A stretch of 21,953 bases of DNA from a virus. The stretch spans positions 1 to 21,953 of the IMG/VR virus record IMGVR_UViG_3300042868_001875; one strand, given 5' to 3'. The notes beneath the pieces were generated by a model. That model was not told the origin of the DNA. It ran no database searches and worked only from the letters and a program-made list of their open reading frames with translations. Of the stretch, positions 568 to 13,035 are shown in pieces (within the stretch, counting starts at the first letter, position 1; every line of letters starts with the position of its first letter). Both the position numbers and the translations under genes were made by a program.

Positions 568-875
568 TATACTGTGCCTTCTCGTGTGCGAAACACTTTG
601 TTATCTGGGTCATTAAGAAATCTTCTAAATGCTTTTTGGTCTATGACATGGAATCCACGCACAATACCTTTTTTGTTTAATTCGTCAAAGACAGTCATAG
701 GAATACTTGCTATCTTGTTGTCAAATATATCATCACCCCAACGAGTGTGTTTATCTGTATATTTACGTTGATTGTTATTGTCCTCAATAATATCTGTAAT
801 GTCTTGTCTAGTTTCAACAACTAAACCACTATCAGTATCATGAACAACGTTTGTTCTAAATGTTATAGGTTTCAT
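567..875 (-). CDS. Conserved phage protein of unknown function between capsid and adaptor
   Basis: A 102-aa protein starting at ATG 875, preceded by AAGGAAAAATGA on the coding strand, a reasonable ribosome site. The middle (KYTDKHTRWGDDIFDNKIAS) and the C-terminal part (GFHVIDQKAFRRFLNDPDNK, then FRTREG) look like a small soluble protein that recurs at this position in SU10-like and related podoviral head operons. Its role is not known to me. The position between major capsid and adaptor suggests a head-completion or tail-joining role, but that is inference. No transmembrane segment or nucleotide-binding motif is visible. It is coupled to the adaptor gene by a one-base overlap. Confidence 0.85.
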   Translation of the reverse strand: MKPITFRTNVVHDTDSGLVVETRQDITDIIEDNNNQRKYTDKHTRWGDDIFDNKIASIPMTVFDELNKKGIVRGFHVIDQKAFRRFLNDPDNKVFRTREGTV

Positions 876-949
876 TCATTTTTCCTTTGCCTGTGTTTTG
901 AGTGAAAACTATTTTGACAGACAAACATTAAAATACTATTAGGTAGAAG

Positions 950-973
950 AGGCCTACCACGAAAGATAGGCCT
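950..973 (-). terminator. Stem-loop after the major capsid gene (weak terminator or processing site)
   Basis: AGGCCTA at 950-956 pairs with TAGGCCT at 967-973, a perfect 7-bp stem with a 10-base loop. It lies 14 bases past the capsid stop codon. The sequence after it on the minus strand (TCTTCTACC) is pyrimidine-rich but not a clean U-run, so termination would be partial. A leaky terminator or 3'-end stabiliser after the capsid gene would raise capsid mRNA relative to downstream genes, as in many phages. That role is inferred. Confidence 0.5.
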
Positions 974-986
974 AATCTAATTACAA

Positions 987-1937
987 CTACTCTGCTAAGT
1001 CAGCAATAATTGCGTGAGCAGCTTGGTTCTTAACTTCTAATGTATATTCTACTAAAAGTTGAGTTACATCTGCGTCACCAGATTTAGCCAATTCATTTGT
1101 TTGGAATGGGCGTAAATATGCAACTGCTGCGTACTCTGGATCAAGAACAAATGCTTGTTCACCACTATCACCAGAATCTGCAGTCATAAATCTGTTAGGA
1201 ACAACAGATAATGTACCAAAGTCTGATAAGTAAATATCAGCTGCACCAATGATTGTAGTAGCTTTGTTGCTTGGAGCCATATAACGCTGAGCTGCAACAC
1301 CTGCAAATGCAGATACATTTACTTTTTGTGTTGGAGTTGTCATAAGAATGGTTGGAGTACCACCATTAGTATATGCAGATTTAACTGCTGTTTTTAACAT
1401 TGTTTCTGTGAATGCTGCGTCAGTACCAGATACACGAGCTGTAGTGCCAAGTGAACCAGCAGTACCGTTAGTGCCACCAACGTAGTTAGAATTTAACCAT
1501 GTTTGTAGACCACCAAGTGTACGAGCTGTAGTAGCATTACCAGCTGCTGCAACTGTGTTGCTTAAAAGTGCTTTTTCCATATCACGTTTAAGTTCAGCAG
1601 AAACTTTAGCTAATTGGTAAGCCTTTTCAGATTTACGACCAGCTTTGTTAATTGCTTCCATAGTACCAGAAATCTTAATTGTTTTTGAAGAGATCTGAGT
1701 TCTATTACCTACTCGTGTTGTTGGAGTTACTGTAATGTCAGAAGCTGCGTCACCTTCAACTACAGCGTTAGATGCTGCTGCTGCGAGTGAGTCAGTTTGC
1801 CATTCGTGATATGTTGCTGTTGCCTTTGTCTTACCAATAGAACTCATAAATGGAGTTTCTGTAGGTGAAATGTTATAAATAACATCTGACAAATCTTCTC
1901 TATTACCAATAGAGGTATAGGTTTGATACGTTGCCAT
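987..1937 (-). CDS. Major capsid protein, SU10-type (DUF5309 family)
   Basis: A 316-aa protein that forms the icosahedral shell. The N-terminus (MATYQTYTSIGNREDLSDVI, then SPTETPFMSSIG) carries the N-arm signature common to SU10-type HK97-fold major capsid proteins (the DUF5309/SU10_MCP group): 'NREDL..VI..ISP.ETPF.S..GK'. The central part holds an Ala/Gly/Thr-rich insertion around residues 145-170 and the P-domain-like segment KVNVSAFAGVAAQRYMA. The end (YTLEVKNQAAHAIIADLAE) is a typical capsid C-terminus. The length is normal for the family. The ATG at 1937 has AAGGA six bases upstream. It follows the scaffold gene directly, the usual order, and is followed by a stem-loop. Assembly would use the scaffold encoded just upstream. 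Confidence 0.93.
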   Translation of the reverse strand: MATYQTYTSIGNREDLSDVIYNISPTETPFMSSIGKTKATATYHEWQTDSLAAAASNAVVEGDAASDITVTPTTRVGNRTQISSKTIKISGTMEAINKAGRKSEKAYQLAKVSAELKRDMEKALLSNTVAAAGNATTARTLGGLQTWLNSNYVGGTNGTAGSLGTTARVSGTDAAFTETMLKTAVKSAYTNGGTPTILMTTPTQKVNVSAFAGVAAQRYMAPSNKATTIIGAADIYLSDFGTLSVVPNRFMTADSGDSGEQAFVLDPEYAAVAYLRPFQTNELAKSGDADVTQLLVEYTLEVKNQAAHAIIADLAE

Positions 1938-1946
1938 GATTTTTCC

Positions 1947-2945
1947 TTAGATTAAATTTTCAAATAGAGCTGCAGCATCTCTGACTTTGCCAGAGCTACG
2001 CAACTGCTGTGATTGTTTCTTTACAGTTTCGCTATTACTTGCTTTAGTTTGTGCAGTACCAGATTTCAACATCTTTGGTGCGTCAGCAATCTTCTTTGTT
2101 AAGGCTGGTTTTGACTTTTGCAATTTGTCATACATCATTGCCTTATGCAATGTAACAACGTGCCTAGAATCATAGACAGAAGATAACTCTTCCTCTGAGA
2201 ATCCTAAGGCTTTGCCATAAGTACGAATCTCTTTTCTGAGGTTTTCGCCTTTGGTTGGATCTGAAAACTCTGGTAGGACTTGTGCTAGTTTAGATGCTTC
2301 CTGTGCAACTCTGTCAGACATGGCACGAGCTTGTTCAGATTGTTGCACTTGTGCAATTCTGTACTGCTCTGCTCTTATAGCTTGGAGTTGTTCTTTCCTT
2401 TCAGAAAGTTCAGCAACTTTAACTGCATAGCCTATAGGGTCGTTTTCCTTAAGAAGATTTAAATCCTCTTGTGGTGACTGAGCTACGATAAATTCCTCAA
2501 TAGCTTGTAAGCGTTGAGCATATGTATCACGAGCATACTTTGCTTCTTCAATAGCTTGACGTTCAGCTTCAACAGCCTTGCGTTGTTCTGCTACTTCAGT
2601 AGTCTTTTTAGTGTAATCAGCACCAAGTTGATAACCTTTAACTAATTCATCAAGGGTGACCTCCTTTTCTTCGCCAGCAGCTTTTACCTTGTAGCGAGGT
2701 TGTTCCTCTTCTTCAGTTTCAGTTTCTTCTTGTTCTTCAGAATCATCTTCAGCTTCAACTTCTTCAGTTTCTTCTGCTTGTGGCTCTGCTTCTTGAGCCT
2801 CTGCTTCTACTTGTTCTTGAACTTCACCATCTGATTGCTCCTTAGAGTTCGCTGGTGTATTCATTAAACCTTCAAATGCATTGGCTGCTGTACTTACTGT
2901 AAGCTCGCCATTCCCATCTTCTGGGGTCATGGTAGTTTCACTCAT
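1947..2945 (-). CDS. Capsid scaffolding protein
   Basis: A 332-aa very acidic protein located between portal and capsid, the standard place for the scaffold that guides procapsid assembly and is later expelled. Residues about 35-85 are almost wholly Glu/Asp/Ala/Gln. This is followed by RYKVKAAGEEKEVTLDELVK (a motif frequent in podoviral scaffolds), then a long helical, coiled-coil-prone region (residues about 110-270) rich in Glu, Gln, Ala and Arg. The C-terminus is basic and helical (KVRDAAALFENLI), the kind of tail that binds coat protein in P22. The start at ATG 2945 has AGGAAAATTAA upstream. Sequence identity among scaffolds is low, so the call rests on composition, position and the VTLDELVKGYQLGADYTKKT segment. 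Confidence 0.85.
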   Translation of the reverse strand: MSETTMTPEDGNGELTVSTAANAFEGLMNTPANSKEQSDGEVQEQVEAEAQEAEPQAEETEEVEAEDDSEEQEETETEEEEQPRYKVKAAGEEKEVTLDELVKGYQLGADYTKKTTEVAEQRKAVEAERQAIEEAKYARDTYAQRLQAIEEFIVAQSPQEDLNLLKENDPIGYAVKVAELSERKEQLQAIRAEQYRIAQVQQSEQARAMSDRVAQEASKLAQVLPEFSDPTKGENLRKEIRTYGKALGFSEEELSSVYDSRHVVTLHKAMMYDKLQKSKPALTKKIADAPKMLKSGTAQTKASNSETVKKQSQQLRSSGKVRDAAALFENLI

Positions 2946-2994
2946 TTAATTTTCCTATATATCCACTAGGGGTGGTTACCCATTTTAGAAATCT

Positions 2995-3228
2995 CTAAAA
3001 TATCTTCCATGCTTTACTTTTAATTTCGCTAGTCTTAGCGATTGATTCAAAGTGAGCCATGAGTTCGTTATAGCAAGAGATGCGTTGATATGCTTGTTCT
3101 CTTACGTCTGTTTGTTCTGGATTAGAGTAAACGATGCGTTGCATTTGGTTGTCCACTAATTCCTTGACTGCATCTTGAAAATGCACGTCATTTAAAATAT
3201 TTGCAATGGCCTGTGATTTATCAGACAT
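2995..3228 (-). CDS. Small protein of unknown function between portal and scaffold
   Basis: A 77-aa, mostly helical protein, starting at ATG 3228 and overlapping the end of the portal gene by eight bases, so it is probably translated by coupling. Visible pieces are ILNDVHFQDAVKELVDNQ and REQAYQRISCYNELMAHFES. Small proteins with a similar 'RE.AY..I.....L...' helix recur after the portal gene in podoviral head operons, but I do not know their role. It contains no zinc-binding pairs, membrane segment or enzyme motif. The short gap that follows (2946-2994) contains only the ribosome site of the scaffold gene and a small CCAC/GTGG hairpin. Confidence 0.8.
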   Translation of the reverse strand: MSDKSQAIANILNDVHFQDAVKELVDNQMQRIVYSNPEQTDVREQAYQRISCYNELMAHFESIAKTSEIKSKAWKIF

Positions 3229-5314
3229 TCATACTACCTTTTGCAATGTCATTGATCTTAGTAATAGAGTCCATTACTGTTTTAGTTTGATTGTTCTTAG
3301 CTGTTTCAGTCATGTTAGCTGCATCTAGTTTAAGTTGCATTTCTTTCAACGCTAACTCAGCTGTCTGTACAAGTTCTTTTTGTTGTAATTCTAAAGACTT
3401 GCGTTGATTCTCTAGTTGCATTTGTTCACGATCTAATTGTAGCTTAGCAGCTTCTGTTTGTGCTCTTAGTTGAGCTTTCTCACGTTCTACCTGAGCTAAT
3501 ATTTCAGCTGCTTGTGTATTAGGATCAGCCTTTTGTTGTGATGCTTGTTGTATAACTTGTTGTTCAATCTCTGGAGTAATCTCATTCATGAATGCTGTAG
3601 CATCTTTGAATCCAGCCATGTGTACAAACTTAGCTAATGTATCTCTATATTGTTTAATTGAGATGAGTGGATTGTTTACACCATAAGCCTGTAAGATTTG
3701 TTCTTGCTTACCTAAGATCATTTGCATAGTAGCAAGTTGTTCTTGACGTGAGCCAGTACCTAAACCTACGTTGATAGTGACATTGTATTCTGTATCCCAT
3801 TCACGAGGATCAAAAGGAACAAACTTACCATTAATACGAAGCGTTCTTACTGTATCTTGATACTTGCATAGTAATTGTAAGATACCTTTGAATAGTGATT
3901 TAACACCTGTTTCTGCAAATATACGAGCAATCAATTCTAACTTACCATAAGATGCATTAGACATTGTAGCTACTGCTGCAGCTGTAACGTTTTGCAATAC
4001 ATCTGGACTTAAACCTTGTTGAGCATCGCTAACACCTGTACGTTTAGCTTGAACTCCATCTAAATACTCTAGCATTGGGAATGATTGTGCAGCACTTGAC
4101 TGTACTGTCAATGGTACGATTGCACCTGCATTCTTAACACGAATCACACCACCTGCTGTAGATGTTAATAAGTCATCTAAGTTTACTTGGCCTTCAACTG
4201 CAGCAATGCGTGAGTTGTTAGTTAAGTATAAGTTATCTAACATCTGACGAGTGACAGTAGACTTAATTAATTGAATATCTAATGTACGATCAGCTAATGA
4301 TTGGCCATAGAATTTATGTGGAATTGGTATTGGGCAGATAGAATGAAATGGTACATAATCGCACTCCATATCTTCTAGGATCTCATTAGATGCATATACA
4401 ATTCTTCTTAGTTCTGCAATGCCATCTTCGTTGTAATCTACTTTAATGAAACATTCATACACTTCTACTAATTCCATAGAAATATCTTGAGTGCCCATGC
4501 TGTTAGGTTGTTCACCACGAGAGTAACGAGCAATTCTTTCTGGGCTAAATTCTAATGTATCGCCAGATTCTAATGACTCTACCATGTCTTTATCAAAACC
4601 CATCGCCACTAGCTCAGAACGAGTAAGCATCCTACGATGTGCTACGAATGGTGAATCTTGAATTGTTTTAGCACGCTTAGATATTAAGAACTCTTCTGGA
4701 GGAACATTTTCTACAATGATCTTACCTTTGTTCTTGCTGCGTTTTAATGTAACGTTGTTTGATTTACTGTATGTTGTTTGGCCAGTCATCTCATCAATAG
4801 ATGATTCTTCAATGATTTCTTGAGATGCTAGTTCTATCTCTGGATCTTGCATGAGCATCATTAGCTCATCATCTGATAGGCCTTCATACTTTTCTTTAGT
4901 AACATCTGTATCATCATTCCAGTAAGCCTTAACTACACCAGTCTTTTGTAGTAACGCATCTTTGAACCAGTTATGAAGTATTAAGAAGCCATCGTTATCT
5001 TTATAGAATACATGATTAACTAATTGTGTGGCCTGCTCAGCATTTTGTTCGTCACCTTCTTTAGCTGGTGCAAACTCAACTACGTTATCACTAGAAGTAA
5101 ATACACGAATGAGTTGTGGTAATGCACCATCAACTGCTTCAGCAACTTCACCTGTAACGATTGTAGACTTACCCTCAACTTCATTACCATATGGCTCACG
5201 AAGATAATACTCAAGGGCTTGTTGACGTTCATCTGTAGTATCTGTTTCTAGATAACCTAATGAGTCATCTATCTCAGCCTCAATAATCGTCTTTAATTTG
5301 TTAATATCAATCAT
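3221..5314 (-). CDS. Portal protein, SU10/P22-like
   Basis: A 697-aa protein that forms the dodecameric DNA-entry ring at one capsid vertex. It follows the large terminase directly and has the portal hallmarks: an N-terminal helical region (LGYLETDTTDERQQALEYYL, then GRSTIVTGEVAEAVDGALPQ-like text at residues about 47-67), the FTSSDNVVEFAPAKEGDEQN segment, a long central stem region containing GQSLADRTLDIQLIKSTVTR, and the VSDAQQGLSPDVLQNVTAAA motif near residue 430, which is highly typical of this family. The last 120 residues are a long Gln/Glu/Lys/Ala coiled coil, comparable to the barrel of P22 portal. The length suits the group. The start ATG 5314 lies next to the terminase stop, with no gap. 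Confidence 0.93.
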   Translation of the reverse strand: MIDINKLKTIIEAEIDDSLGYLETDTTDERQQALEYYLREPYGNEVEGKSTIVTGEVAEAVDGALPQLIRVFTSSDNVVEFAPAKEGDEQNAEQATQLVNHVFYKDNDGFLILHNWFKDALLQKTGVVKAYWNDDTDVTKEKYEGLSDDELMMLMQDPEIELASQEIIEESSIDEMTGQTTYSKSNNVTLKRSKNKGKIIVENVPPEEFLISKRAKTIQDSPFVAHRRMLTRSELVAMGFDKDMVESLESGDTLEFSPERIARYSRGEQPNSMGTQDISMELVEVYECFIKVDYNEDGIAELRRIVYASNEILEDMECDYVPFHSICPIPIPHKFYGQSLADRTLDIQLIKSTVTRQMLDNLYLTNNSRIAAVEGQVNLDDLLTSTAGGVIRVKNAGAIVPLTVQSSAAQSFPMLEYLDGVQAKRTGVSDAQQGLSPDVLQNVTAAAVATMSNASYGKLELIARIFAETGVKSLFKGILQLLCKYQDTVRTLRINGKFVPFDPREWDTEYNVTINVGLGTGSRQEQLATMQMILGKQEQILQAYGVNNPLISIKQYRDTLAKFVHMAGFKDATAFMNEITPEIEQQVIQQASQQKADPNTQAAEILAQVEREKAQLRAQTEAAKLQLDREQMQLENQRKSLELQQKELVQTAELALKEMQLKLDAANMTETAKNNQTKTVMDSITKINDIAKGSMNV

Positions 5315-6607
5315 CTATACAATCCATTTATTATTAATGTTGAGAGGTTGACCCCAATCAGAGCCACTTTCATCTAAGCCTACCGCTAAATATCTAAATG
5401 CGTCAGCAGCATGAGAGCACCAATCATGTAGTGGTGTATCAAAGAATACGTTACGCTTCTCATCATATGTTCTACGATAGTTTCGTAATGCATCTATACC
5501 TTGCTTAACGTCTTTATCAAACCAGCATCTAGGAAGTAACCTGCGTACTGCTTGAATTCCATCTGCAACTGGTAGTTTCTTTACTACTGTAATCTCTAGT
5601 CCTGCATCTTGTAACATCTCTTTACGAGATTTACCTGTACCTAATTCTCTTACCTCTACATCATGAGGTAACAACTGTACAGCATCAATCCAACCATTAT
5701 CACGCAACCAAGCAACATAAGTATCCAATCCTTGTCCATGATTTTCATAGAAATCTACAAGTCTTATTTCCTTACCTACTACTTGTGCTACCCAAATTGC
5801 TGTGCTATCTGATATACCTAAGTCCCATGCACAATATGTCTTTGCTAGTTCTTCTCTAGGTATAGATGTTATCTTATTATTCTTTTCTAAATCATTAATG
5901 ATCTGGCCATAGTATGAGCCTTCTACTGCTGCATTAAATGAGCATTCAAACTCTTGGTTATACTTATCCTCACCCATCTCATTTTTAGCTGAGGCTAATT
6001 CATTTGCATCTAGTAACTGTGTTTGTGATGCCTTAAACTCTAATAGCTTCCATTGATCGTCACCTTTGTCAGCACGATCTCTTAAATCTTTAAAGTGATT
6101 ATTGCCTTTAGGTGTACCAATAAACATTGCCCAACCTAAACGATCAGATAATGCTGGTCGTACAACTTCACTAAATATAATTGGATTAATATCACCAATC
6201 TCATCAATCACTACACCGTCTAAATAGATACCTCGTAATGCGTCAGGATTATCTGCACCGTATAATGAAATACGTCTGCCCATGAAATCAACTCTTAACT
6301 CTGCTATGTTAGCAATAGCACCTAGTGGCCTTGTATAGTTAAGTAAGTAATCCCATGCAATACGTTTACATTGTGAGTACGTTGGAGCAATGTATGCAAA
6401 TCTTGGATTAGGTTTATCACACAGTAGTGATGAATGTATCAACTGGTTTATGGCTGATACCGTCTTGCCCATACGTCTATGAGCTACCACTACTGTGAAC
6501 CTGTTGTCCTTCACCATTTGGTGAATCAACTTCTGTGGATTACGAGGTGTATAATCAGTAGATACTACATCCTCTTCATCATCTATAATTTCAATCTCTT
6601 CAGACAT
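5315..6607 (-). CDS. terL: Terminase large subunit (ATPase and nuclease)
   Basis: A 430-aa DNA-packaging motor that pumps and cuts the phage genome at the portal. The N-terminal ATPase has Walker A at residues 42-49 (AHRRMGKT), Walker B near 132-136 (VVIDE, with catalytic Glu136), and the coupling motif IGTPKG at 163-168. The C-terminal RNase H-fold nuclease shows acidic residues in the expected places: D262 in AWDLGISDST, D316 in LLPHDVEVRE, and D402 in the terminal HDWCSHAADAFRY segment. Both halves look intact. It overlaps the end of the small-subunit candidate by eight bases. 'Portal next, small subunit before' is the normal packaging-module order. Confidence 0.95.
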   Translation of the reverse strand: MSEEIEIIDDEEDVVSTDYTPRNPQKLIHQMVKDNRFTVVVAHRRMGKTVSAINQLIHSSLLCDKPNPRFAYIAPTYSQCKRIAWDYLLNYTRPLGAIANIAELRVDFMGRRISLYGADNPDALRGIYLDGVVIDEIGDINPIIFSEVVRPALSDRLGWAMFIGTPKGNNHFKDLRDRADKGDDQWKLLEFKASQTQLLDANELASAKNEMGEDKYNQEFECSFNAAVEGSYYGQIINDLEKNNKITSIPREELAKTYCAWDLGISDSTAIWVAQVVGKEIRLVDFYENHGQGLDTYVAWLRDNGWIDAVQLLPHDVEVRELGTGKSRKEMLQDAGLEITVVKKLPVADGIQAVRRLLPRCWFDKDVKQGIDALRNYRRTYDEKRNVFFDTPLHDWCSHAADAFRYLAVGLDESGSDWGQPLNINNKWIV

Positions 6608-6842
6608 CTATACCTGTTATCACTTTAATGGATACTGGCTGATCAGCATCGCCTGTAATCTCAGTAGAAGATAAATCTGGTAGACTCTTCTTCAATAATA
6701 GCTCAATTGCTTTCATTCTTGTTGCTGAAATCTCATTTTCAGTCAAGCCAAGTGCATGATTTTGAAGAACATTTACGAGCTGACTAGTTTGAATCTTAGT
6801 CCTTACTTCGTCTTGATGTCTTTTGCGTAGTCTTTCTGCCAT
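6600..6842 (-). CDS. Terminase small subunit-like DNA-recognition protein
   Basis: An 80-aa protein encoded immediately before, and overlapping, the large terminase gene. It reads as a helical protein (ERLRKRHQDEVRTKIQTSQL, NHALGLTENEISATRMKAIE, LLLKKSLPDLSSTEITGD). The segment 'T..RMKAIELLLKK.LPDLS..EI.GD' is what I know from short small-terminase-like proteins of podoviruses. Small subunits bind the packaging site and recruit the large subunit. It is shorter than most full small subunits and has no obvious N-terminal helix-turn-helix, so it may be only the oligomerisation part, or another packaging accessory. Position is the strongest support. Confidence 0.7.
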   Translation of the reverse strand: MAERLRKRHQDEVRTKIQTSQLVNVLQNHALGLTENEISATRMKAIELLLKKSLPDLSSTEITGDADQPVSIKVITGIDV

Positions 6843-6886
6843 GATTGTAACTCCATTACTGGGTCATTACCTTAGTTGTTAATTAA

Positions 6887-7138
6887 TTACCACTTTACCT
6901 TGTTAGCCCAGTAAGCCGCACTCATCTTACCTTTAGCTATATTATCAGAATGTCTTGCCTTAAATGACTTAGATCTTGCTGTATTTGTTTTATCACCACT
7001 AACACCTTGCTGGCCAAAGCGAATAAGTTTTTCTTTGTCACCTACCTTTGCCAGTACTGCATGGCTTTTAGTGGGATGGTTTGGAGTTCTCTTAGGTTTA
7101 TTAACACCAGAGAATGTTTCTTTACCCTTCTTAATCAT
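6887..7138 (-). CDS. Small basic conserved phage protein next to terminase
   Basis: An 83-aa, strongly basic protein, starting at ATG 7138, which overlaps the stop of the 54-aa gene as ATGA. It begins MIKKGKETFSGVNKPKRTPN and continues HPTKSHAVLAKVG, then LIRFGQQGVSG, and ends KGKMSAAYWANKVKW. I recognise this layout ('GVNKPKRTPNHPTKSHAV', 'IRFGQQGV.G', 'SAAYWANKVKW') as a widespread phage protein of unknown function often encoded beside terminase or portal genes. The high Lys/Arg content suggests nucleic-acid binding, perhaps in packaging, but that is inference. There are no zinc-binding pairs or membrane segments. Confidence 0.85.
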   Translation of the reverse strand: MIKKGKETFSGVNKPKRTPNHPTKSHAVLAKVGDKEKLIRFGQQGVSGDKTNTARSKSFKARHSDNIAKGKMSAAYWANKVKW

Positions 7139-7299
7139 TTTTTCTTCTTAGCTGTCTTTCCGTATTCTTTCATTTTTTCTTTCTTAGATTCTTTTTTCTC
7201 GTGCATCTTCATACCTTTTGCACTAGCGTAAGTTTCTGCAGATTTTTTACCTTTTTCCGTATAAGGAAATTTCTTTTTTCCAACCATTGGCATGATCAT
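7135..7299 (-). CDS. Lysine-rich 54-aa peptide of unknown function
   Basis: A 54-aa reading frame from ATG 7299 (alternatives at 7293 and 7287). It begins MIMPMVGKKKFPYTEKGKKS, has AETYASAKGMKMHEKKESKK in the middle and ends in a run of lysines. About two fifths of its residues are Lys. It is coupled at both ends by ATGA overlaps: its start overlaps the stop of the 50-aa gene, and its stop overlaps the start of the 83-aa gene. That tight packing is good evidence that it is translated. The 'KKFPYT.KG...A..YA' motif recurs in short basic phage proteins. A DNA-binding role is possible but unproven. Confidence 0.75.
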   Translation of the reverse strand: MIMPMVGKKKFPYTEKGKKSAETYASAKGMKMHEKKESKKEKMKEYGKTAKKKK

Positions 7300-7448
7300 T
7301 TACCTTTCTTAGCTGTTTTTGCTGCTTGTTTAAATTGTTTTGCTGTTGGTGCATTCTTGCTGCCAACCTTGTTCATCTTTTCGTCTGAACCTGCTTTAAT
7401 TCTTGCACGCTTAGCATGAATGTTAGCATATAATCCTTGTTTAGCCAT
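7296..7448 (-). CDS. Basic 50-aa conserved phage peptide
   Basis: A 50-aa frame from ATG 7448. It begins MAKQGLYANIHAKRARIKAG, followed by SDEKMNKVGSKNAPTAKQF and a Lys-rich end. The 'GLYANI+AKR.RI.AGS.E+M...G..GAPTA..F' arrangement is a recurring small phage protein of unknown function. The start overlaps the stop of the 109-aa gene (TAATG) and its stop overlaps the start of the 54-aa gene (ATGA), so the frame is almost certainly used. No enzyme motif, zinc site or membrane segment is visible. Its membership in a run of short basic proteins next to the packaging genes suggests a DNA-related or virion-internal role. Confidence 0.8.
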   Translation of the reverse strand: MAKQGLYANIHAKRARIKAGSDEKMNKVGSKNAPTAKQFKQAAKTAKKGK

Positions 7449-7777
7449 TATCTGCCTAGCATTCTTAGTAATGAATTTAAATCCAACCCTCTTGGAAGCA
7501 TTTGGTTTTGTATTGGCATAGTATTTTGCATAGACATACCACCAGCATAAGGAGGAATGTTTTGCATAGTATTAGCTTGTGGATTATATCCTCTTAGAAA
7601 GTCTACATCTGAAGGTGTGCCTTGTGTGTAAACATCACCCATTTGTCTTAACCTTGACATTTCATCCATCTGAGCTTTCATTTGTGCAAACTTTAATGCA
7701 GCTAATTCAGCTTCAGTCATAGTACCTGTAGGTGATTTACTGTTAGAGCCGCCTAATAATCCTGCTAATCTATCCAT
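7448..7777 (-). CDS. Gln/Met/Asn-rich protein of unknown function
   Basis: A 109-aa protein with a ribosome site AAGGA six bases before ATG 7777. The first half is helical and charged (MTEAELAALKFAQMKAQMDE, then MSRLRQMGDVY). The second half is low-complexity, rich in Asn, Gln, Met, Pro and Gly (NPQANTMQNIPPYAGGMSMQ), and ends in a short helix (RGLDLNSLLRMLGR). I do not recognise a family. Such half-ordered Gln/Met-rich proteins in late operons are sometimes virion components. Coupled downstream to the 50-aa basic gene. Confidence 0.75.
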   Translation of the reverse strand: MDRLAGLLGGSNSKSPTGTMTEAELAALKFAQMKAQMDEMSRLRQMGDVYTQGTPSDVDFLRGYNPQANTMQNIPPYAGGMSMQNTMPIQNQMLPRGLDLNSLLRMLGR

Positions 7778-7786
7778 GATGTGTCC

Positions 7787-7960
7787 TTATTTTTTCTTTT
7801 TCTTGCTCATGCCTGCTTCGCTTAAAGCGATTGCAATACCTTGAGCTTTAGATTTAACTACCTTGCCACCCTTACCAGAGTGCAATGTACCAGCTTTATA
7901 CTCACCCATTACTTTTGCTACCTTTTTTAACTTCCCAGCTTTTGATGTGGGTTTCTTCAT
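7787..7960 (-). CDS. DUF6496-like small basic protein
   Basis: A 57-aa frame from ATG 7960, which has AAGGA six bases upstream. The C-terminal core 'VMGEYKAGTLHSGKGGKVVK' followed by SKAQGIAIALSEAG is the signature of the DUF6496 group ('M..+K.G.L.SG.GKKV..R.QAIAIALSEA'), short basic proteins of unknown function found in many phages. The N-terminus is Lys-rich and the end is a lysine run. It overlaps the 3' part of the zinc-ribbon gene by 59 bases in another frame. A later start at ATG 7909 would cut the overlap to eight bases, but lacks a good ribosome site. Confidence 0.8.
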   Translation of the reverse strand: MKKPTSKAGKLKKVAKVMGEYKAGTLHSGKGGKVVKSKAQGIAIALSEAGMSKKKKK

Positions 7961-8075
7961 CTGGTTTCCTTAATTTAAAATGTGTTAGGTTTCTACAGTC
8001 TTGACATATAGAAGATCCTGTGTCATCTGAATCGTATGGTTCACCACACTCTTGACATATTTGCACTTGGATCAT
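7902..8075 (-). CDS. Zinc-ribbon-like small protein, first gene of the late unit
   Basis: A 57-aa frame from ATG 8075 (a TTG at 8084 would add three residues; neither has a clear Shine-Dalgarno). Two Cys pairs, CQEC and CQDC, lie 13 residues apart with an acidic loop between them (GEPYDSDDTGSSI), the pattern of a small zinc ribbon. The C-terminal half is basic and overlaps the next gene by 59 bases. It is the first frame after the intrinsic terminator at 8088-8113, so it would be translated only from read-through transcripts. The function is unknown. A nucleic-acid or transcription-complex binding role is a guess from the fold type. Confidence 0.55.
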   Translation of the reverse strand: MIQVQICQECGEPYDSDDTGSSICQDCRNLTHFKLRKPDEETHIKSWEVKKGSKSNG

Positions 8076-8087
8076 CTTATTCAAACT

Positions 8088-8113
8088 AAAAAAAAGCCTG
8101 CTATTACACAGGC
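8088..8113 (-). terminator. Intrinsic terminator between late promoter and late genes
   Basis: On the minus strand GCCTG (8113-8109) pairs with CAGGC (8100-8096) across an 8-base loop, followed immediately by eight U residues (8095-8088). The short GC-rich stem plus clean U-run fits a Rho-independent terminator. It also ends the leftward early operon. It stands only about 45-50 bases past the predicted start of the late transcript, the place expected of a tR'-like late attenuator. Confidence 0.8.
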
Positions 8114-8160
8114 CAATTATGGAGTGCTATGAAAGTGATAGATACACTTATCCCAGCACC
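8088..8160 (-). ncRNA. Predicted short leader RNA of the late promoter (lambda 6S-like)
   Basis: The start predicted 5-7 bases after the -10 box is G8160 or G8159, and the RNA would end in the U-run at 8088, giving about 70-73 nt. From +1 or +2 it folds into a long hairpin: GUGCU (8159-8155) pairs with AGCAC (8128-8124), and AAGUG (8149-8145) with CACUU (8137-8133), closed by a 7-base loop, with G-C and A-U pairs possible in the internal loop. Then comes a 10-base linker and the terminator hairpin. No open frame fits inside. It could be a true small RNA, the default product of an antiterminated promoter, or a cis element like HK022 put RNA. Prediction only. Confidence 0.6.
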
Positions 8161-8164
8161 AGCG

Positions 8165-8194
8165 ATTATATCATATATAATAGGCCATTGTCAA
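8165..8194 (-). promoter_or_regulatory. Strong consensus sigma-70 promoter, candidate late promoter (pR'-like)
   Basis: Read on the minus strand, the -35 is TTGACA (8194-8189) and the -10 is TATAAT (8170-8165), both perfect. The spacer is 18 bases, with TG plus one base just before the -10 (extended -10). It begins three bases after the stop of the Q-like gene and points at the late genes. In lambdoid phages the Q binding site sits in the same place, between the -35 and -10 of pR'. Confidence 0.85.
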
Positions 8195-8197
8195 GTG

Positions 8198-8521
8198 CTA
8201 ATTGGGTATTCTGCGTGTTGCTATGTTTAATAAATTATCGTAGGCCATGTTCATGTGGTAATCTTGCAACACCTCAGCCCTAGATCCTGTGTACTTATGA
8301 TAGACAGCATTTTGTTGACGTTCTGGAAGTGAATCTATAATAGCCTGTATAGTTTTAATGTGATCATTCTGCATAGACTCATACATCTCATCAAACGATG
8401 TACTATTGCCACCAGTACTCATCCCTAAACTGCGACTAGGAAAACCAAGTTTACTATTGCCACTATGCTTAAGACTTCTTGCCCATGCCTTTAATAGATC
8501 CTGCAGCCTTTCCATTGTCAT
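8198..8521 (-). CDS. Q-like late antitermination protein candidate
   Basis: A 107-aa protein from ATG 8521, chosen because GGAGG lies six bases upstream; the frame is open further but without a ribosome site. The N-terminus MTMERLQDLLKAWARSLKHS, then LGFPSRSLGMSTGG, followed by a helical region (IKTIQAIIDSLPERQQNAVY, HKYTG) and a last helix (MAYDNLLNIATRRI), resembles the phage 82-type antitermination Q family: 'L..W..W...G.GFPS.S', then a sigma region 4-like helical part. Such proteins bind DNA at the late promoter, load onto RNA polymerase and make it ignore terminators. The match is by eye. Strong independent support is the location: last gene of the early operon, directly before a consensus promoter and an early terminator. 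RinA/ArpU-like activators are an alternative. Confidence 0.65.
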   Translation of the reverse strand: MTMERLQDLLKAWARSLKHSGNSKLGFPSRSLGMSTGGNSTSFDEMYESMQNDHIKTIQAIIDSLPERQQNAVYHKYTGSRAEVLQDYHMNMAYDNLLNIATRRIPN

Positions 8522-8522
8522 A

Positions 8523-8918
8523 CTAATCCTCCAGAGAATATATTGAGCTAACGTTATTTGACTCTGATCCATTGTGTGATCTTAAATTATGTTTGGTGTG
8601 TGTTTCCTTATAAACTGTGCCAGTCATATTTTCATATCCAGATGGCAATGGCCTTAGTATGCTTTGAAGTAAGCATGGACTATCTTTAAAATACAATGTA
8701 TGACTCTTGCATCCACTAGCATTAAGGTAACGATAGGCCACCATGTTTGCAATAGCACTTACAATTTGTTTGTAGTTAGCATTAATGCGTCTAGCTATTT
8801 CAGTAGATGAAATTCTTTCGTCACCTACAGCTTCAATAATTAATTCTCTTAATTTTGCAATGGTAATTTCTTCACCATTAACTTTATATATTTTTTGTGC
8901 TTTTGGATTGTTGTTCAT
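8523..8918 (-). CDS. Helix-turn-helix protein of unknown function
   Basis: A 131-aa protein from ATG 8918, overlapping the stop of the gene before it (ATGA). Residues about 36-68 (ISSTEIARRINANYKQIVSA, then IANMVAYRYL) read as a helix-turn-helix or winged-helix DNA-binding region: a short helix, a turn at the Asn, and a recognition helix. The C-terminal 40 residues are Ser/Asn/His-rich and probably disordered. It stands just before the Q-like gene at the end of the early operon, a place often taken by regulators. It might be a repressor or middle-gene regulator, but no target can be named. Confidence 0.7.
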   Translation of the reverse strand: MNNNPKAQKIYKVNGEEITIAKLRELIIEAVGDERISSTEIARRINANYKQIVSAIANMVAYRYLNASGCKSHTLYFKDSPCLLQSILRPLPSGYENMTGTVYKETHTKHNLRSHNGSESNNVSSIYSLED

Positions 8919-9400
8919 AATGGCATAAACTTAACATATTTAGTTGGACATATATAAAAGTTTTGCTTTACATCTTCATATCTTTTGTCTGTATAACTTT
9001 TTACAAACCAATTATCTTTTGTTTCTGCTTTAATAATAGCCACATGAGTTCTTTCTTTATTTAAATAAATATAAACTTCTGGTTTAGGATTTGCATAATC
9101 ATATGAATACTGAGCACAAACCATAAAATTTTCTTTAAATGGCCAATCCTCTTCACAAGTAAAACTAGCACCAAGATTTTTTACTTCAACTCTTTTTAAA
9201 TTTTCATTCTTTTTTTGCACATACATATCACCATCATCAACATTTTCTTTCCAGTCTTTATAATCCTTAGATCTATTAATTGGATTGATTGTTACAGAAT
9301 ATCCCATATTATTGAGCCATTGTGCAACGATCCAAACACCTTCTTGGCTTTTTTCAAGAAAGTTTAAAAATCTTTTATGGTCTATATTATTTTTAATCAT
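8915..9400 (-). CDS. Putative PD-(D/E)XK nuclease-like protein
   Basis: A 161-aa protein starting directly after the stop of the previous gene (TAAATG). An N-terminal helix (GVWIVAQWLNNMGYSVTINP) leads to GD at 57-58, then RVEVKNLG with E72 and K74. The 'helix - GD - 13 residues - E-x-K' layout is that of the PD-(D/E)XK nuclease fold, with D58, E72 and K74 as predicted metal and catalytic residues. The rest is alternating strands with several aromatics (YSYDYANPKPEVYIYLNKER). The substrate is unknown; DNA processing during replication or recombination, or attack on host DNA, are possible. The fold assignment rests on one motif. Confidence 0.6.
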   Translation of the reverse strand: MIKNNIDHKRFLNFLEKSQEGVWIVAQWLNNMGYSVTINPINRSKDYKDWKENVDDGDMYVQKKNENLKRVEVKNLGASFTCEEDWPFKENFMVCAQYSYDYANPKPEVYIYLNKERTHVAIIKAETKDNWFVKSYTDKRYEDVKQNFYICPTKYVKFMPL

Positions 9401-9721
9401 TTAACTTACATCTACTTCTTTTATTTGCCAACGATTGTTTTGCTTATATGTACCCCATACAAGTATCTTCCATCCTGCCTTGCGTACATACTTAACAGAT
9501 TCGCTATCAGCTATCTTTTTTATGCGTGCCCCCATGTTACTCTTTGATGTGACCTGCACCGCTACTACTTGACCTTCTTCAGTTATAGCAAGGATGTCAA
9601 TAAACGTAAACAAATCTTTGCGTACACCAGCATGGAAATTAAACGTTTCCACTATCTGTACTAGTGGGTAATTTTCCTTCTTCATTCTCGCTAGGGCTAC
9701 TTGCGTTGGTGACATTGCCAT
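9401..9721 (-). CDS. PD-(D/E)XK-like small protein with Gln in the E-x-K motif
   Basis: A 106-aa protein. ATG 9721 has GAGGA eight bases upstream, which supports this start even though it overlaps the previous gene by 83 bases. The core TFIDILAITEEGQVVAVQVT followed by SKSNMGARIKKI matches a common small phage family built like a resolvase or VRR-type nuclease: D42, then a strand with Q56-x-T58 and S59/K60 where most members of the fold have E-x-K. The C-terminus WKILVWGTYKQNNRWQIKEV is the usual closing strand pair. Catalysis is uncertain because of the Gln. It could be a DNA-binding, non-catalytic member. Confidence 0.65.
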   Translation of the reverse strand: MAMSPTQVALARMKKENYPLVQIVETFNFHAGVRKDLFTFIDILAITEEGQVVAVQVTSKSNMGARIKKIADSESVKYVRKAGWKILVWGTYKQNNRWQIKEVDVS

Positions 9722-9890
9722 TAAATTGTTCCTCGTTAGGTTTACTTGTTCCGTCTAAAAATCTTTTTTCAACTTCACCTGTGCTTTTATTGCATTGGTA
9801 TTCGTAATCTTTTTTAAAAATTCTACTCCAATTATCTTCTGCCTCTTGCTCAGATATTAATAGTGGCCTTCTTCCAGAACCTTTACCCAT
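9639..9890 (-). CDS. Conserved phage protein, MGKGS/NWxRIF type, unknown function
   Basis: An 83-aa protein. ATG 9890 is chosen over the longer frame because GGAGG lies six bases upstream. The start MGKGSGRRPLLISEQEAEDN, then WSRIFKKD, is a pattern I know from many phage genomes ('MGKGS.PRP......F..NWDRIF') where the function is unknown. The C-terminal half is Ser/Asn/Glu-rich and likely disordered, which helps explain how it tolerates an 83-base overlap with the next gene. No catalytic or metal motif is visible. Confidence 0.75.
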   Translation of the reverse strand: MGKGSGRRPLLISEQEAEDNWSRIFKKDYEYQCNKSTGEVEKRFLDGTSKPNEEQFNGNVTNASSPSENEEGKLPTSTDSGNV

Positions 9891-10005
9891 CATCATCCTC
9901 CATGATATGAACTTTAATATATTTATAAGCTGCTTCAATTGCTACAAATGGAATTAAGAATGGCACTAACATAAAGCCAACAATCCCTACAATAAATCTA
10001 AGCAT
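9883..10005 (-). CDS. 40-aa single-span membrane protein
   Basis: A short frame from ATG 10005 encoding MLRFIVGIVGFMLVPFLIPF, then VAIEAAYKYIKVHIMEDDDG. The first 25 residues form one hydrophobic transmembrane segment; the tail is basic, then acidic. It overlaps the end of the HNH gene by eight bases and the start of the MGKGS gene by eight bases. The GGAGG of the next gene is inside it. The ribosome site is weak (GAG at nine bases). The coding pattern fills an otherwise empty gap exactly. Role unknown; small membrane proteins in early operons can act on host membrane functions or superinfection. Confidence 0.55.
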   Translation of the reverse strand: MLRFIVGIVGFMLVPFLIPFVAIEAAYKYIKVHIMEDDDG

Positions 10006-10282
10006 TTATTCTACTCAATGTATCAGCAAGCAACTCTTCTTCTGTACCAAATTTACTTTCAAATGTTTCTTGTCCTGCGTGTAATGCAATACCATGACCA
10101 CCATGCTGGTGATGATTAGGGCACAATGGAATTGCGTTCATAAAATTATTACGCATACCCATTCCCATACCATGACGAATATGATGTATGTGTGGAGGTG
10201 AATGACCCCACCCCTCTCTTAAACATACAATACATCCAAGCTGTGACAGTTTATCATAGTGCTGCTTCTCTGCTTTTGTCAA
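9998..10282 (-). CDS. Ref-like HNH endonuclease (RecA-dependent nuclease family)
   Basis: A 94-aa protein. The start is TTG 10282, with AGGA seven bases upstream and no better ATG. It carries LGCIVCLREGWGHSPPHIHH (zinc-binding CxxC and a catalytic HH), then AIPLCPNHHQHGGHGIALHA and ESKFGTEEELL. The order 'LGC..C....G.......HH....G.G', 'IPLC..HHQ.G..G.A.H', 'FE..+GTE..LL' is the signature of phage P1 Ref and relatives, which cut DNA at RecA-made displacement loops. Length is normal for the short form. It follows the NinB/YbcN-like gene, overlapping it by 29 bases, so the two probably act in the same recombination or repair step. Confidence 0.8.
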   Translation of the reverse strand: MTKAEKQHYDKLSQLGCIVCLREGWGHSPPHIHHIRHGMGMGMRNNFMNAIPLCPNHHQHGGHGIALHAGQETFESKFGTEEELLADTLSRINA

Positions 10283-10619
10283 AATGAAATCCTAACTCTA
10301 TTGCGAAACGTTGAATGTCTTGAATATAATTTTTGAACTCGTCTACATTTAAAGATGTCGTACTCTTTATAGCATATATTTCAGATCCTGCAACTGTCTT
10401 TTTTTCTGAAAGATATTTAAACCTAAACATATCATGCAACTCTTCTTCAGAGTAACCACAGTAATCACCAATCTCTTTTAACATTGCCCAGTACAAATCA
10501 TTTTGTGAGTTAGATCTTTTTAATTTAAATTTATCTAATTCAAGATCACCATCTTTTTGAAAGTCATGGCCATTAATTTTTGCTATCGCCATTTCCTTGT
10601 TGTGTTTCGTTATCCTCAT
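10254..10619 (-). CDS. NinB/YbcN-like recombination protein
   Basis: A 121-aa protein. ATG 10619 is preferred (GGAG nine bases upstream) over a longer frame that would lie within the neighbour gene. Key segments are LKRSNSQNDLYWAMLKEIGD, CGYSEEELHDMFRFKYL, KSTTSLNVDEFKNYIQDIQR and FAIELGFHF. The pattern 'KRS..QN.LYW..L..I......s.EELH..fR.KyL', 'KSTT.L...EF..YI..I..fA...G' is the NinB/YbcN family, a recombination accessory in lambdoid phages; lambda Orf (NinB) acts as a recombination mediator that contacts SSB. It overlaps the HNH gene downstream and the 59-aa gene upstream by 47 bases. Confidence 0.8.
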   Translation of the reverse strand: MRITKHNKEMAIAKINGHDFQKDGDLELDKFKLKRSNSQNDLYWAMLKEIGDYCGYSEEELHDMFRFKYLSEKKTVAGSEIYAIKSTTSLNVDEFKNYIQDIQRFAIELGFHFDKSREAAL

Positions 10620-10752
10620 ATTTTTTGCTCCACTTAGTAGATTTATAAACCATTCCATTTTTTAATGTTACCTTCCATTCAGTAGGTGATAAAAGTTTTC
10701 CTTCTTCGTCAACGTCAAAACATTTAAACCATTTAGTTGTTTCATATTTCAT
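10573..10752 (-). CDS. Small soluble protein of unknown function
   Basis: A 59-aa frame from ATG 10752, overlapping the helicase stop as ATGA. It begins MKYETTKWFKCFDVDEEGKL and continues LSPTEWKVTLKNGMVYKSTK before a polar, probably disordered tail. Two similar beta-like stretches with Trp (TKWFKCFDV, TEWKVTLKNG) suggest a small beta-structured domain. I do not recognise a family. The end overlaps the next gene by 47 bases in another frame. Coupling to the helicase gene is the main support for its being translated. Confidence 0.7.
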   Translation of the reverse strand: MKYETTKWFKCFDVDEEGKLLSPTEWKVTLKNGMVYKSTKWSKKYEDNETQQGNGDSKN

Positions 10753-11660
10753 ATTGGCTTATCTCTATATCTTAATGACTTTGGTTCAAACCACAATGGT
10801 ACTGATCCTTCCCACTCAAAATGCCTTTGTTTATTTACAGCCATAAATCCATCTGGAACTATTCTAGCATCTTCTATAGAAAGTTTACCTTCCATTATGT
10901 CTTTTTCTTTTTTCTTATTTCTGTAAATACTGCAACAATTATCTGCAAGATTTGTGATTGTAGCAGAACCTGCCACGTCAAACTTACTTGGTGTGTGTGA
11001 AGTTTCGTCTATTGTTTTTCTACTATGAGCCACTAAATGAATGTGAATATTTAGATCTCGTGCTGCAATACATAACTGGTCAACAAATTTCTTTTGGCCA
11101 TTATAATCATCTTCATTTATAGAACATTTCATTAATGAATCTACCACAAAATGCTGGCAACCCAATTGCTCTGCTGCATAATAAATAACTGATAATACAG
11201 ACGTTGGATTAGTAGATCCTAATTGATCGTACAAAAACAATTGACCTGTACTGCTATTACAAAACTCAGTAATGGCTGACTCTGTTGGTTCGCTAGTACC
11301 TACTGACTGACGAATATACCTAGCTAATGTGCTACGACAAGACATCTCAAAAGAACATATTAAAACTTTATAATTCTCTATGAGCTTAAGAGTAATATAG
11401 CTGAGAACCATACTTTTCCCATGACCACTATAACCAGACCAAATAGTCGTTTCGCCTAAACGAAGTCTGAAATTTTCTGCCTTATCAAACGGAAGATACG
11501 CACCACTTTGAATCTCGCCAGAGAAATATCCAATAGTAGATTCAATAAAAGTATCTGGACTCTTAATTTTACGATATTCATCTGTATCCCTTTTAAAAAA
11601 ATAGTTCTTAATCTTATCCTCATTAATGATGAGGTTCTGCATTTTCTCTTCTAATGACAT
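10749..11660 (-). CDS. DnaB-like replicative helicase (RecA-fold ATPase)
   Basis: A 303-aa DNA helicase of the DnaB/T7 gp4/Twinkle type, lacking a DnaB N-terminal collar domain. Walker A is GYSGHGKS at 76-83. The catalytic Glu is in FEMS (E105). Walker B is HFVVDS at 170-175. The sensor segment LVAHSRK has H212 in the place of the conserved motif-3 residue. A basic motif-4 segment (VNKQRHFEWEG) lies near the end. The N-terminal 60 residues are helical and may serve as linker or ring-forming segment. It overlaps the primase zinc-finger gene by ten bases, so the two are made together and presumably work together at the fork. Confidence 0.9.
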   Translation of the reverse strand: MSLEEKMQNLIINEDKIKNYFFKRDTDEYRKIKSPDTFIESTIGYFSGEIQSGAYLPFDKAENFRLRLGETTIWSGYSGHGKSMVLSYITLKLIENYKVLICSFEMSCRSTLARYIRQSVGTSEPTESAITEFCNSSTGQLFLYDQLGSTNPTSVLSVIYYAAEQLGCQHFVVDSLMKCSINEDDYNGQKKFVDQLCIAARDLNIHIHLVAHSRKTIDETSHTPSKFDVAGSATITNLADNCCSIYRNKKKEKDIMEGKLSIEDARIVPDGFMAVNKQRHFEWEGSVPLWFEPKSLRYRDKPI

Positions 11661-12061
11661 AAGTCGTAAGCCTTTCTCAATCTTTCAGCTGCAATTAACA
11701 ATCTATCTTTATCTTCTAGTGGGAGTTCTTTCCCATTGCCAATCTCTATAGCTGCTAATGCCACTAGCAATGTTTCATTAGAAATAGATTTTAATATTGA
11801 GTATGGATTAAAAGGTTTTGAAACTGGCTTGAAGTCACCTATACGCTGAGGCACAATATCATCAAACGTTAATCCAACTGCACCAAGTATATCATTAGCT
11901 GCACAGCCTGCAAAGCAATTTATAAGAATTCTTCCATCTGGCATCTGTTTAACTCCTAGCGATGCTGTTCTATCTTCATGTGCTGGGCATAAACATTGGT
12001 ATTCATCTTTACCAGACTTGTAAGATTTTTCAAAGTGACCTATGAATTCATAAATATTCAT
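11651..12061 (-). CDS. Primase zinc-finger (CHC2-type) protein without catalytic domain
   Basis: A 136-aa protein with a DnaG-type zinc-binding domain: C25-P-A-H28, then C49 and C53 in INCFAGC, with the usual intervening strand SLGVKQMPDGRILI. The CPAHEDRTASL text is typical of CHC2 zinc fingers that read the priming sequence. After residue 75 the chain is helical (NETLLVALAAIEIGNGKELP) and then ends. No TOPRIM or RNA-polymerase domain is present here or in the helicase. It is thus either a recognition subunit for the host or another primase, or a loader-like adaptor. ATG 12061 overlaps the initiator stop (ATGA). Confidence 0.85.
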   Translation of the reverse strand: MNIYEFIGHFEKSYKSGKDEYQCLCPAHEDRTASLGVKQMPDGRILINCFAGCAANDILGAVGLTFDDIVPQRIGDFKPVSKPFNPYSILKSISNETLLVALAAIEIGNGKELPLEDKDRLLIAAERLRKAYDLCH

Positions 12062-12465
12062 GAGATGTCCTTAATAAAAGATCTCTTCTTTTCTTCTATC
12101 TTCTTCTCTTTTCTCATATCATCTTCTCTCTTATCTTCTTCTCTTCTCTTCTCTCTAGCATAGGTTGTATACTCGTTGAATATAGAATTGTCTGAGTCGC
12201 CCTCAAACCAAGCGTTTAAAGAGATTAACATATCCTGTACAAACTCTTTATCTTTATGCAACCTAAAGCATAGTTTTTTCAGATCTGGAAGCTCACCATT
12301 CTTTTCTGAAGCTAAACACCAAAGCTCAAAAAGTGTGGCCTTTTGATCTGAACTTAACTCATGCCAGTCTGGATCGTTAATAATATCCCTGCCATATACC
12401 TTGAACCAGACCATAGATGCCTTGTTCTTAAAGTGCTGAAACTTACCCCAATTGCGTACTCTCAT
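12058..12465 (-). CDS. Replication initiator-like (replisome organiser) protein
   Basis: A 135-aa protein. ATG 12465 is chosen because GGAGG lies four bases upstream; the longer frame runs into AT-rich promoter DNA. The text MRVRNWGKFQHFKNKASMVW, then DPDWHELSSDQKATLFELWC and LASEKNGELPDLKKLCFRLH, reads as the winged-helix N-domain of phage replication organisers ('W.KFQ..K.......WFK.Y.....D..W..L......L..L...A...G.LP'). These bind origin repeats and recruit the helicase. The last 35 residues are almost only Lys, Arg, Glu and Asp, encoded by a polypurine tract. It heads the leftward early operon, in the lambda O position. Confidence 0.75.
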   Translation of the reverse strand: MRVRNWGKFQHFKNKASMVWFKVYGRDIINDPDWHELSSDQKATLFELWCLASEKNGELPDLKKLCFRLHKDKEFVQDMLISLNAWFEGDSDNSIFNEYTTYAREKRREEDKREDDMRKEKKIEEKKRSFIKDIS

Positions 12466-12493
12466 AAATCCTCCATAGTTAAACTGCCAAAAA

Positions 12494-12522
12494 AGCGTAT
12501 CATAAGTAAAAAGCAATTGCAA
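12494..12522 (-). promoter_or_regulatory. Candidate leftward early promoter
   Basis: Upstream of the initiator gene the minus strand reads TTGCAA (12522-12517), a 17-base spacer that ends in TG plus one base, then TACGCT (12499-12494). An overlapping TATGAT (12504-12499) is closer to a -10 consensus but lacks a well-placed -35. A promoter must lie somewhere here because the operon starts at 12465; the exact boxes are uncertain. The flanking stretch 12520-12550 is almost pure A/T. Confidence 0.4.
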
Positions 12523-12553
12523 TATATTTTTTATATAAATTGTATATAAATAC

Positions 12554-12590
12554 TTGACATTGTTTTTAATAGGCATAATATAACCATATC
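12554..12590 (+). promoter_or_regulatory. Rightward early promoter with conserved downstream box
   Basis: A perfect -35 TTGACA (12554-12559), a 16-base spacer and -10 TAATAT (12576-12581) are followed by AACCATATC. The predicted start is near 12588, about 27 bases before the first rightward gene. The layout, including TTGACATT and the AAC-C/T-ATATC box at the same distance, is repeated at 17526-17562, so this looks like a phage promoter type. Confidence 0.7.
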
Positions 12591-12614
12591 AACAATAACT
12601 ATGGAGTTAAAAAG

Positions 12615-12821
12615 ATGGAAAATACAGTAGAAAATATAGTATCTTATGTTAATGGCCTTAAAGATTTTGATTGGTACTATAAGTATTCAGATGATCATAG
12701 GGCATGGGAAAGTGCTACTAAAGCTAGGAATACTTTACTTTATAGTCAAAAAATACTTGACCCTAACTATGAAATATGGAATTCTATAGCACCAGATAAC
12801 TTTCATAATGGAGCATATTAA
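12615..12821 (+). CDS. First rightward early gene, unknown function
   Basis: A 68-aa protein from ATG 12615, with GGAG nine bases upstream. It is acidic and rich in Tyr, Trp and Asn (NGLKDFDWYYKYSDDHRAWE, YSQKILDPNYEIWNSIAPDN). No known domain, membrane segment or metal site is seen. It is the first gene made from the rightward early promoter. Such immediate-early small acidic proteins often act on host enzymes, but nothing in the sequence proves this. The stop is two bases from the next start. Confidence 0.75.
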   Translation: MENTVENIVSYVNGLKDFDWYYKYSDDHRAWESATKARNTLLYSQKILDPNYEIWNSIAPDNFHNGAY

Positions 12822-12822
12822 T

Positions 12823-13035
12823 ATGGATAAGTTTGAATGGAGTCGTGATAAGCAGCATACTTGGTATAACCAATGGGACTTTAAGACCCCAAGATCATAC
12901 AAAGAACGTTATGGTGTTGACTATAACAAGGATGGCAATTATGCTTATGACGAAGAAAAATTTACACACAAGTTAATTATTATAGTATTATGTGTAATTG
13001 CATTATGTTATACAGGAGTTATAAATTGGATTTAG
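12823..13035 (+). CDS. Small tail-anchored membrane protein
   Basis: A 70-aa protein. ATG 12823 is chosen (GGAG nine bases upstream); an in-frame ATG at 12808 would overlap the previous gene. The first 50 residues are hydrophilic and aromatic-rich (MDKFEWSRDKQHTWYNQWDF, RYGVDYNKDGNYAYDEEKF). The last 20 (LIIIVLCVIALCYTGVINWI) form one transmembrane helix at the very C-terminus, so the soluble part would face the cytoplasm. No family is recognised. Its place in the first early operon suggests a host-interaction or superinfection role (inference). Confidence 0.7.
   Translation: MDKFEWSRDKQHTWYNQWDFKTPRSYKERYGVDYNKDGNYAYDEEKFTHKLIIIVLCVIALCYTGVINWI

Follow-up and report, generated by a model that had tools for sequence, protein, structure and literature searches.

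A probable lambda-like late promoter leader behind a diverged Q-family antiterminator gene in little-studied freshwater phages

Why should a phage place a strong promoter, a short hairpin-forming leader and a terminator immediately before its late genes? The question is raised by the window analysed here, a 21,953-base virus record considered over its whole length, in which promoter, hairpin and terminator alike lie on the minus strand. An initial annotation had proposed, without naming a strand, a structured RNA of ~72 nt at this site, and considered that it could be a by-product comparable to lambda 6S RNA, a regulatory RNA or an element acting like HK022 put RNA. The relevant features are the following:

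8198-8521, minus strand: Q-type antiterminator gene, 107 aa from MTMERL (PF06530 in homologues, structure model)
8194-8165, minus strand: late promoter (-35 TTGACA at 8194-8189, 18-nt spacer, TATAAT at 8170-8165)
ending at 8165, minus strand: extended -10 element TGATATAAT (TG extension; TGA-TATAAT)
8159-8088, minus strand: predicted terminated leader RNA of ~72 nt (start at ~8159-8157, judged from the -10 spacing)
8159-8124, minus strand: 5' hairpin (outer stem GUGCU/AGCAC, inner stem AAGUG/CACUU)
8154-8143, minus strand: predicted promoter-proximal pause signal (G-11 G-10 at 8154-8153, Y-1 at 8144, purine +1 at 8143)
8154-8132, minus strand: conserved core GGGATAANTGTATCTATNACTTT of the initial transcribed region (19 IMG/VR stretches)
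8114-8088, minus strand: intrinsic terminator (stem at 8114-8095, then U8)
7902-8075, minus strand: first late gene, a small zinc-ribbon protein (MIQVQICQEC...; ORF list)
987-6607, minus strand: late structural genes (PHROG matches)
6607-5315, minus strand: terminase large subunit (PHROG match)
5314-3221, minus strand: portal (PHROG match)
1937-987, minus strand: major capsid protein (PHROG match)

Within positions 1-13000, this is the only promoter matching the sigma-70 consensus at 12 of 12 positions, and its activity is predicted from that match. Genes of the replication type lie upstream on the same strand, among them NinB, a RecA-dependent nuclease and a DnaB-type helicase; the Q-type gene, which ends a few bases ahead of the -35, is then followed by promoter, leader, terminator and late genes. 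The promoter is kept in relatives, and related contigs repeat the order of Q gene, promoter, leader, terminator and zinc-ribbon gene, the last being again the first gene after the leader. In four of them (L057, L092, L117, and L129), the Q-like gene and the late promoter are separated by a DNA methyltransferase gene, and at least two different methyltransferases occupy this one spot just before the promoter in relatives; promoter and leader are intact downstream of the insert.

The RNA running from 8159 to 8088 has a predicted folding energy of -24.2 kcal/mol (z -3.90), a value reached by none of 200 shuffled sequences, and contains both stems named in the initial annotation as well as the terminator hairpin. 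The structure is real and the original observation is confirmed, including the statement that there is no room for a protein, no ORF fitting into the transcript. The terminator accounts for much of the z-score, because the first 45 nt taken by themselves give a marginal result against shuffled sequences (z -1.86, p 0.045). Rfam covariance models at the gathering score gave no match in the window, and the late leaders of lambda and phi80 likewise match none. The same stretch also folds when read on the plus strand, as an inverted repeat should, but that strand carries neither promoter nor U-tract. Plus-strand positions 8120-8230 hold a GGAG followed by an ATG (8129) opening a 33-codon frame opposite the leader; we rejected this small ORF, whose frame, start and length are not kept in relatives.

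The gene preceding the promoter encodes the Q-type protein. Its ORF opens at 8572, and we assigned the 107-aa start to an inner Met (8521) because the proteins of relatives begin there. Searched alone, the window protein matches no Pfam model significantly and does not reach the PF06530 cut-off. Among 33 IMG/VR homologues, 15 match PF06530 (Phage_antitermQ) at E<=0.1 (best 5.4e-6, against 8.8e-25 for the Q protein of phage 21), and eight give weak matches to sigma-70 region 4. The latter are expected from the 21Q fold, as the crystal structure of Q21 resembles sigma region 4 bound to anti-sigma (PMC6606751). We modelled the window protein from 33 sequences (pLDDT 79), an earlier model from seven sequences being too poor. 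Foldseek by itself returned no significant PDB match for this model; when the model was re-aligned to the Foldseek PDB candidates, the Q21 loading complex (6p18) came first (Z 7.4 over 90 residues), followed by sigma region 4 domains. The structure supports the Pfam evidence and is insufficient alone, because Foldseek was not significant and a Z of 7.4 is modest for a helical protein. Comparing the family profile with the single 21Q sequence in hhalign gave no match (probability 0.4), and PDB sequence searches with family profiles found no Q protein. Two homologues are already annotated in this sense: that of MW202481 as "phage antitermination protein Q", and that of Methylophilales phage Venkman as "antitermination-like protein". 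On this homology and modelling evidence, we assign the 107-aa protein to the Q antiterminator group. A scan of genome contigs for the Q-like protein gave a single weak match (36%), in a contig binned as Thermoplasmatota that is possibly a mis-binned phage (L051, JAMCUS010000019.1). A search for a phage RNA polymerase (PF00940) found no match, and neither did its control.

Relatives of the window allow the leader to be examined across a family. The core GGGATAANTGTATCTATNACTTT occurs in 19 IMG/VR stretches, once in each (0 expected in the shuffled window), with the same promoter ahead and a terminator behind; this 23-nt sequence hardly varies between lineages with Q proteins of only ~50% identity, while its spacing to the -10 differs by 1-2 nt. 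A further group (L052, L065, L094, and others; Q ~42% identical) shares the promoter followed by the pattern GGGATAAT, its core diverging after GGGATAATT. A profile search added many more relatives (L132-L189, Q 43-52% identical) with quite different leaders, for example TGGACAACTCCTGTCC or GAGGGCATTGTGTTGCCC. Finally, EBPR podovirus 1 (Q 33% identical) carries TTGACA-17-CAGAAT, GGGGCAGAGGTGCGCCC and a terminator, all located after gp41.

The conservation tests were conducted on 12 lineage representatives, and since these lineages are related, shuffle tests overstate their independence. The summed score for a 5'-proximal helix was 113, against 88.3 +- 5.6 after shuffling, and none of 500 shuffles scored as high; single sequences were mostly not significant. 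When L044-type, L082-type and MW202481 leaders are aligned, three hairpin pairs are changed on both sides and still paired, and the covariation score, to which three terminator pairs also contribute, was reached by 0 of 500 shuffles. Among L132-type leaders, the arms vary as GGACA/UGUCC, GGGCA/UGCCC, AGGCA/UGCCU and GGAUA/UGUCC, as counted by script; RNAalifold recovered only the terminator from this alignment, in which MAFFT had put the hairpin arms in different registers. The terminator itself is conserved in spite of altered sequence, with one doubly changed pair in alignment A6 and three in alignment A7. The window's own close group varies too little for a covariation test. As for the individual stems, the initial annotation had asked whether either would be broken without compensation. 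This is the case for the inner stem AAGUG/CACUU in L044, L130 and L131, where a U x C mismatch shows that it is not conserved; the outer stem GUGCU/AGCAC is kept in L130 and L131, other groups having another helix in its place, and neither helix score nor covariation indicates such a break for the whole 5' hairpin. The 5' hairpin is better supported by comparison, its sequence shifting over about 12 related lineages while the helix stays.

The start of the transcript also carries a putative pause signal. The known core-polymerase pause consensus is G-10 Y-1 G+1, and the lambda PR' leader carries a pause at ~16 nt (PMC4604602). The motif GG N8 YR, placing the RNA end 20-23 nt past the -10 (~+14 to +17), is found in 11 of the 12 lineages (1.3 in shuffled sequences) and the strict form GG N8 YG in eight (0.6 in shuffled sequences), the window having YA instead of YG; p-values for this motif are optimistic because it was noticed before testing and the lineages share ancestry. 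Overlapping the predicted signal is a -10-like GATAAG (8152-8147), which matches at four of six positions and lacks the important T at position 6, the sister groups having GATAAT. No Q-binding direct repeat rose above chance in the family, in a test that detects that of phage 21.

With a Q-group gene upstream, late genes downstream and a pause motif between them, the ~72-nt RNA is very probably the counterpart of lambda 6S RNA, a leader made from a PR'-type late promoter over which a Q-family antiterminator has control. The host's sigma-70 RNA polymerase would initiate at ~8159-8157 on the minus strand and meet the promoter-proximal pause signal at ~+15. By default, it would stop at the terminator at ~+72 and release a short hairpin RNA. 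Once the Q-type protein has accumulated, it would bind near the promoter, join the paused polymerase and make it terminator-resistant, and read-through would then reach the zinc-ribbon, terminase, portal and capsid genes. In phage 21, Q likewise sits near the promoter and on the paused polymerase, and the terminator is passed (PMC6606751). The 5' hairpin cannot form at the predicted pause or help to make it, because its 3' arm is still downstream of the active site and untranscribed. It probably acts after pause escape, for example by protecting the 5' end or by hindering backtracking, a role that we propose because complexes that Q has engaged do backtrack to the pause (PMC6606751).

Of the three roles considered initially, the lambda 6S-like one is therefore well supported, by the Q-family gene, strong promoter, pause motif, terminator and late genes, and by their repetition in relatives. 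The terminated leader could in addition be a trans-acting small RNA like StxS, whose CUCC stretch (~8125-8121 on the minus strand in the window, near the terminator) would pair with Shine-Dalgarno sequences in mRNAs of the host or early mRNAs of the phage. This possible addition is compatible with the PR'-Q switch, and we regard it as rather unlikely. CUCC is present in 11 of the 12 lineage leaders against 2.7 expected, the RNA would have a stable 5' hairpin and a terminator with a U8 tail, and StxS provides a precedent (PMC7873438); yet the motif was picked after the data were seen, its context varies between linker, outer stem and terminator loop, and it is missing in L007 and L035 (CUUC) and in EBPR podovirus 1.

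Alternatively, the inverted repeat could serve as a DNA operator to which a dimeric regulator, either Q or a repressor, binds, the RNA fold being incidental. The near-invariance of the core among phages with Q proteins ~50% identical does exceed what pairing needs. An operator is nevertheless improbable: the U x C mismatch of L044, L130 and L131 means that the DNA dyad itself is not conserved, more distant relatives keep the hairpin and lose the core sequence, and the distance from core to -10 shifts by 1-2 nt. Least credible of all, to the point of being nearly negligible, is a put-like leader modifying RNA polymerase without a protein: put RNA, which may also hold a -10-like sequence, consists of two non-terminator stem-loops (PMC9378689), and although the leader has a fitting size (~70 nt), two hairpins and a position near the promoter, its second hairpin is an intrinsic terminator with U8 that such a modification would defeat, so that no put-like pair exists, a Q-family gene is adjacent, and hairpin sequence and shape differ widely between relatives.

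The probable late switch under a Q-family antiterminator is a known architecture in a new lineage, that of little-studied freshwater phages in which it was previously unrecognised. The nearest relatives with a name are phages of Methylophilales or were obtained from spring water. As the window portal is 61.5% identical to that of Venkman, whose host is Methylophilales bacterium H5P1, and 73% identical to that of MW202481, the host of the window phage is likely to belong to the Methylophilales. In Venkman itself (MT375522; Q-like gene at 12602-12928), no promoter-leader-terminator arrangement of the window type was found, so its late operon must either be controlled otherwise or have a site too diverged. 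In relatives of an isolated Methylophilales phage, a lambda-style late switch would operate through a Q protein that standard annotation misses because of its divergence, and the succession of Q-like ORF, TATAAT, GG N8 YR, hairpin and terminator offers a signature for metagenome searches.

Several described systems resemble the window. StxS, like the predicted RNA, originates in a PR'-tR' region, where antitermination control yields it as a by-product (PMC7873438); StxS is an Hfq-bound, RNase E-processed RNA with known targets, whereas the window RNA is predicted from sequence. The PR'-Q21 system of phage 21 shares with the window a Q protein of PF06530, a similar predicted fold, a short leader and a terminator immediately past the start. 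Its tandem Q-binding repeat (TGAGCA) was not found in the window family, and its terminator stem begins at ~+3 with no separate 5' hairpin, unlike that of the window. Podoviridae sp. MW202481, from Manatee Spring, has no zinc-ribbon gene directly after the leader, which is itself unannotated, but presents the same kind of promoter, a GGGATA core, a hairpin and a terminator after an annotated Q gene, the hairpin being re-paired over 11 bp (GUUGGGAUAGG/UCUGUCUCAAC).

The lambda PR'-tR' region (6S RNA, Q) offers a close parallel, with its Q gene, strong promoter, promoter-proximal pause (predicted in the window), terminator and late genes, and the window matches the lambda order of replication genes, Q, PR', leader and late genes. 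The lambda late leader is ~194 nt long, that of the window being shorter (~72 nt), and lambda Q belongs to another Pfam family (PF03589 instead of PF06530). The -10-like element lies at +1 to +6 in lambda (PMC4604602) and at ~+7 to +12 in the window. The lambda leader also has a similar TGGGTTAATTCG stretch, and its transcript start, AACGAUGGGUUAAUUCGCUCGUUGU, folds into a hairpin at ~+1 (AACGA/UCGUU), as in the window. Five of the six lambda-type Q leaders examined begin with four bases (AACG or AACA) that are exactly complementary to CGUU or UGUU 14-25 nt further on (0.6 expected), the fourth pair being G-C in some phages and A-U in others. The AACR/YGUU complement is seen at this distance in all five of lambda, phi80, SPN3UB, ES18 and phiEt88 (L193, L196-L198, and L200). 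The case for a hairpin in lambda-type leaders rests on this +1 complement, since the six leaders did not reach significance in a general helix test (p 0.08). We found no description of a +1 hairpin as a general trait of Q leaders in the literature searched, little of which was subscription-only. The recurrence of AACR...YGUU would fit a shared role, and the +1 hairpin may be such a trait. A stronger proposal, that it is a functional, conserved part of Q leaders generally that blocks backtracking after the pause, and that the released RNA also works as a small RNA through a CUCC seed complementary to Shine-Dalgarno sequences, is quite unlikely to hold as a whole. Should the 5' hairpin prove to have a function, the action of Q, so far described as driven by DNA and protein, would gain an RNA step.
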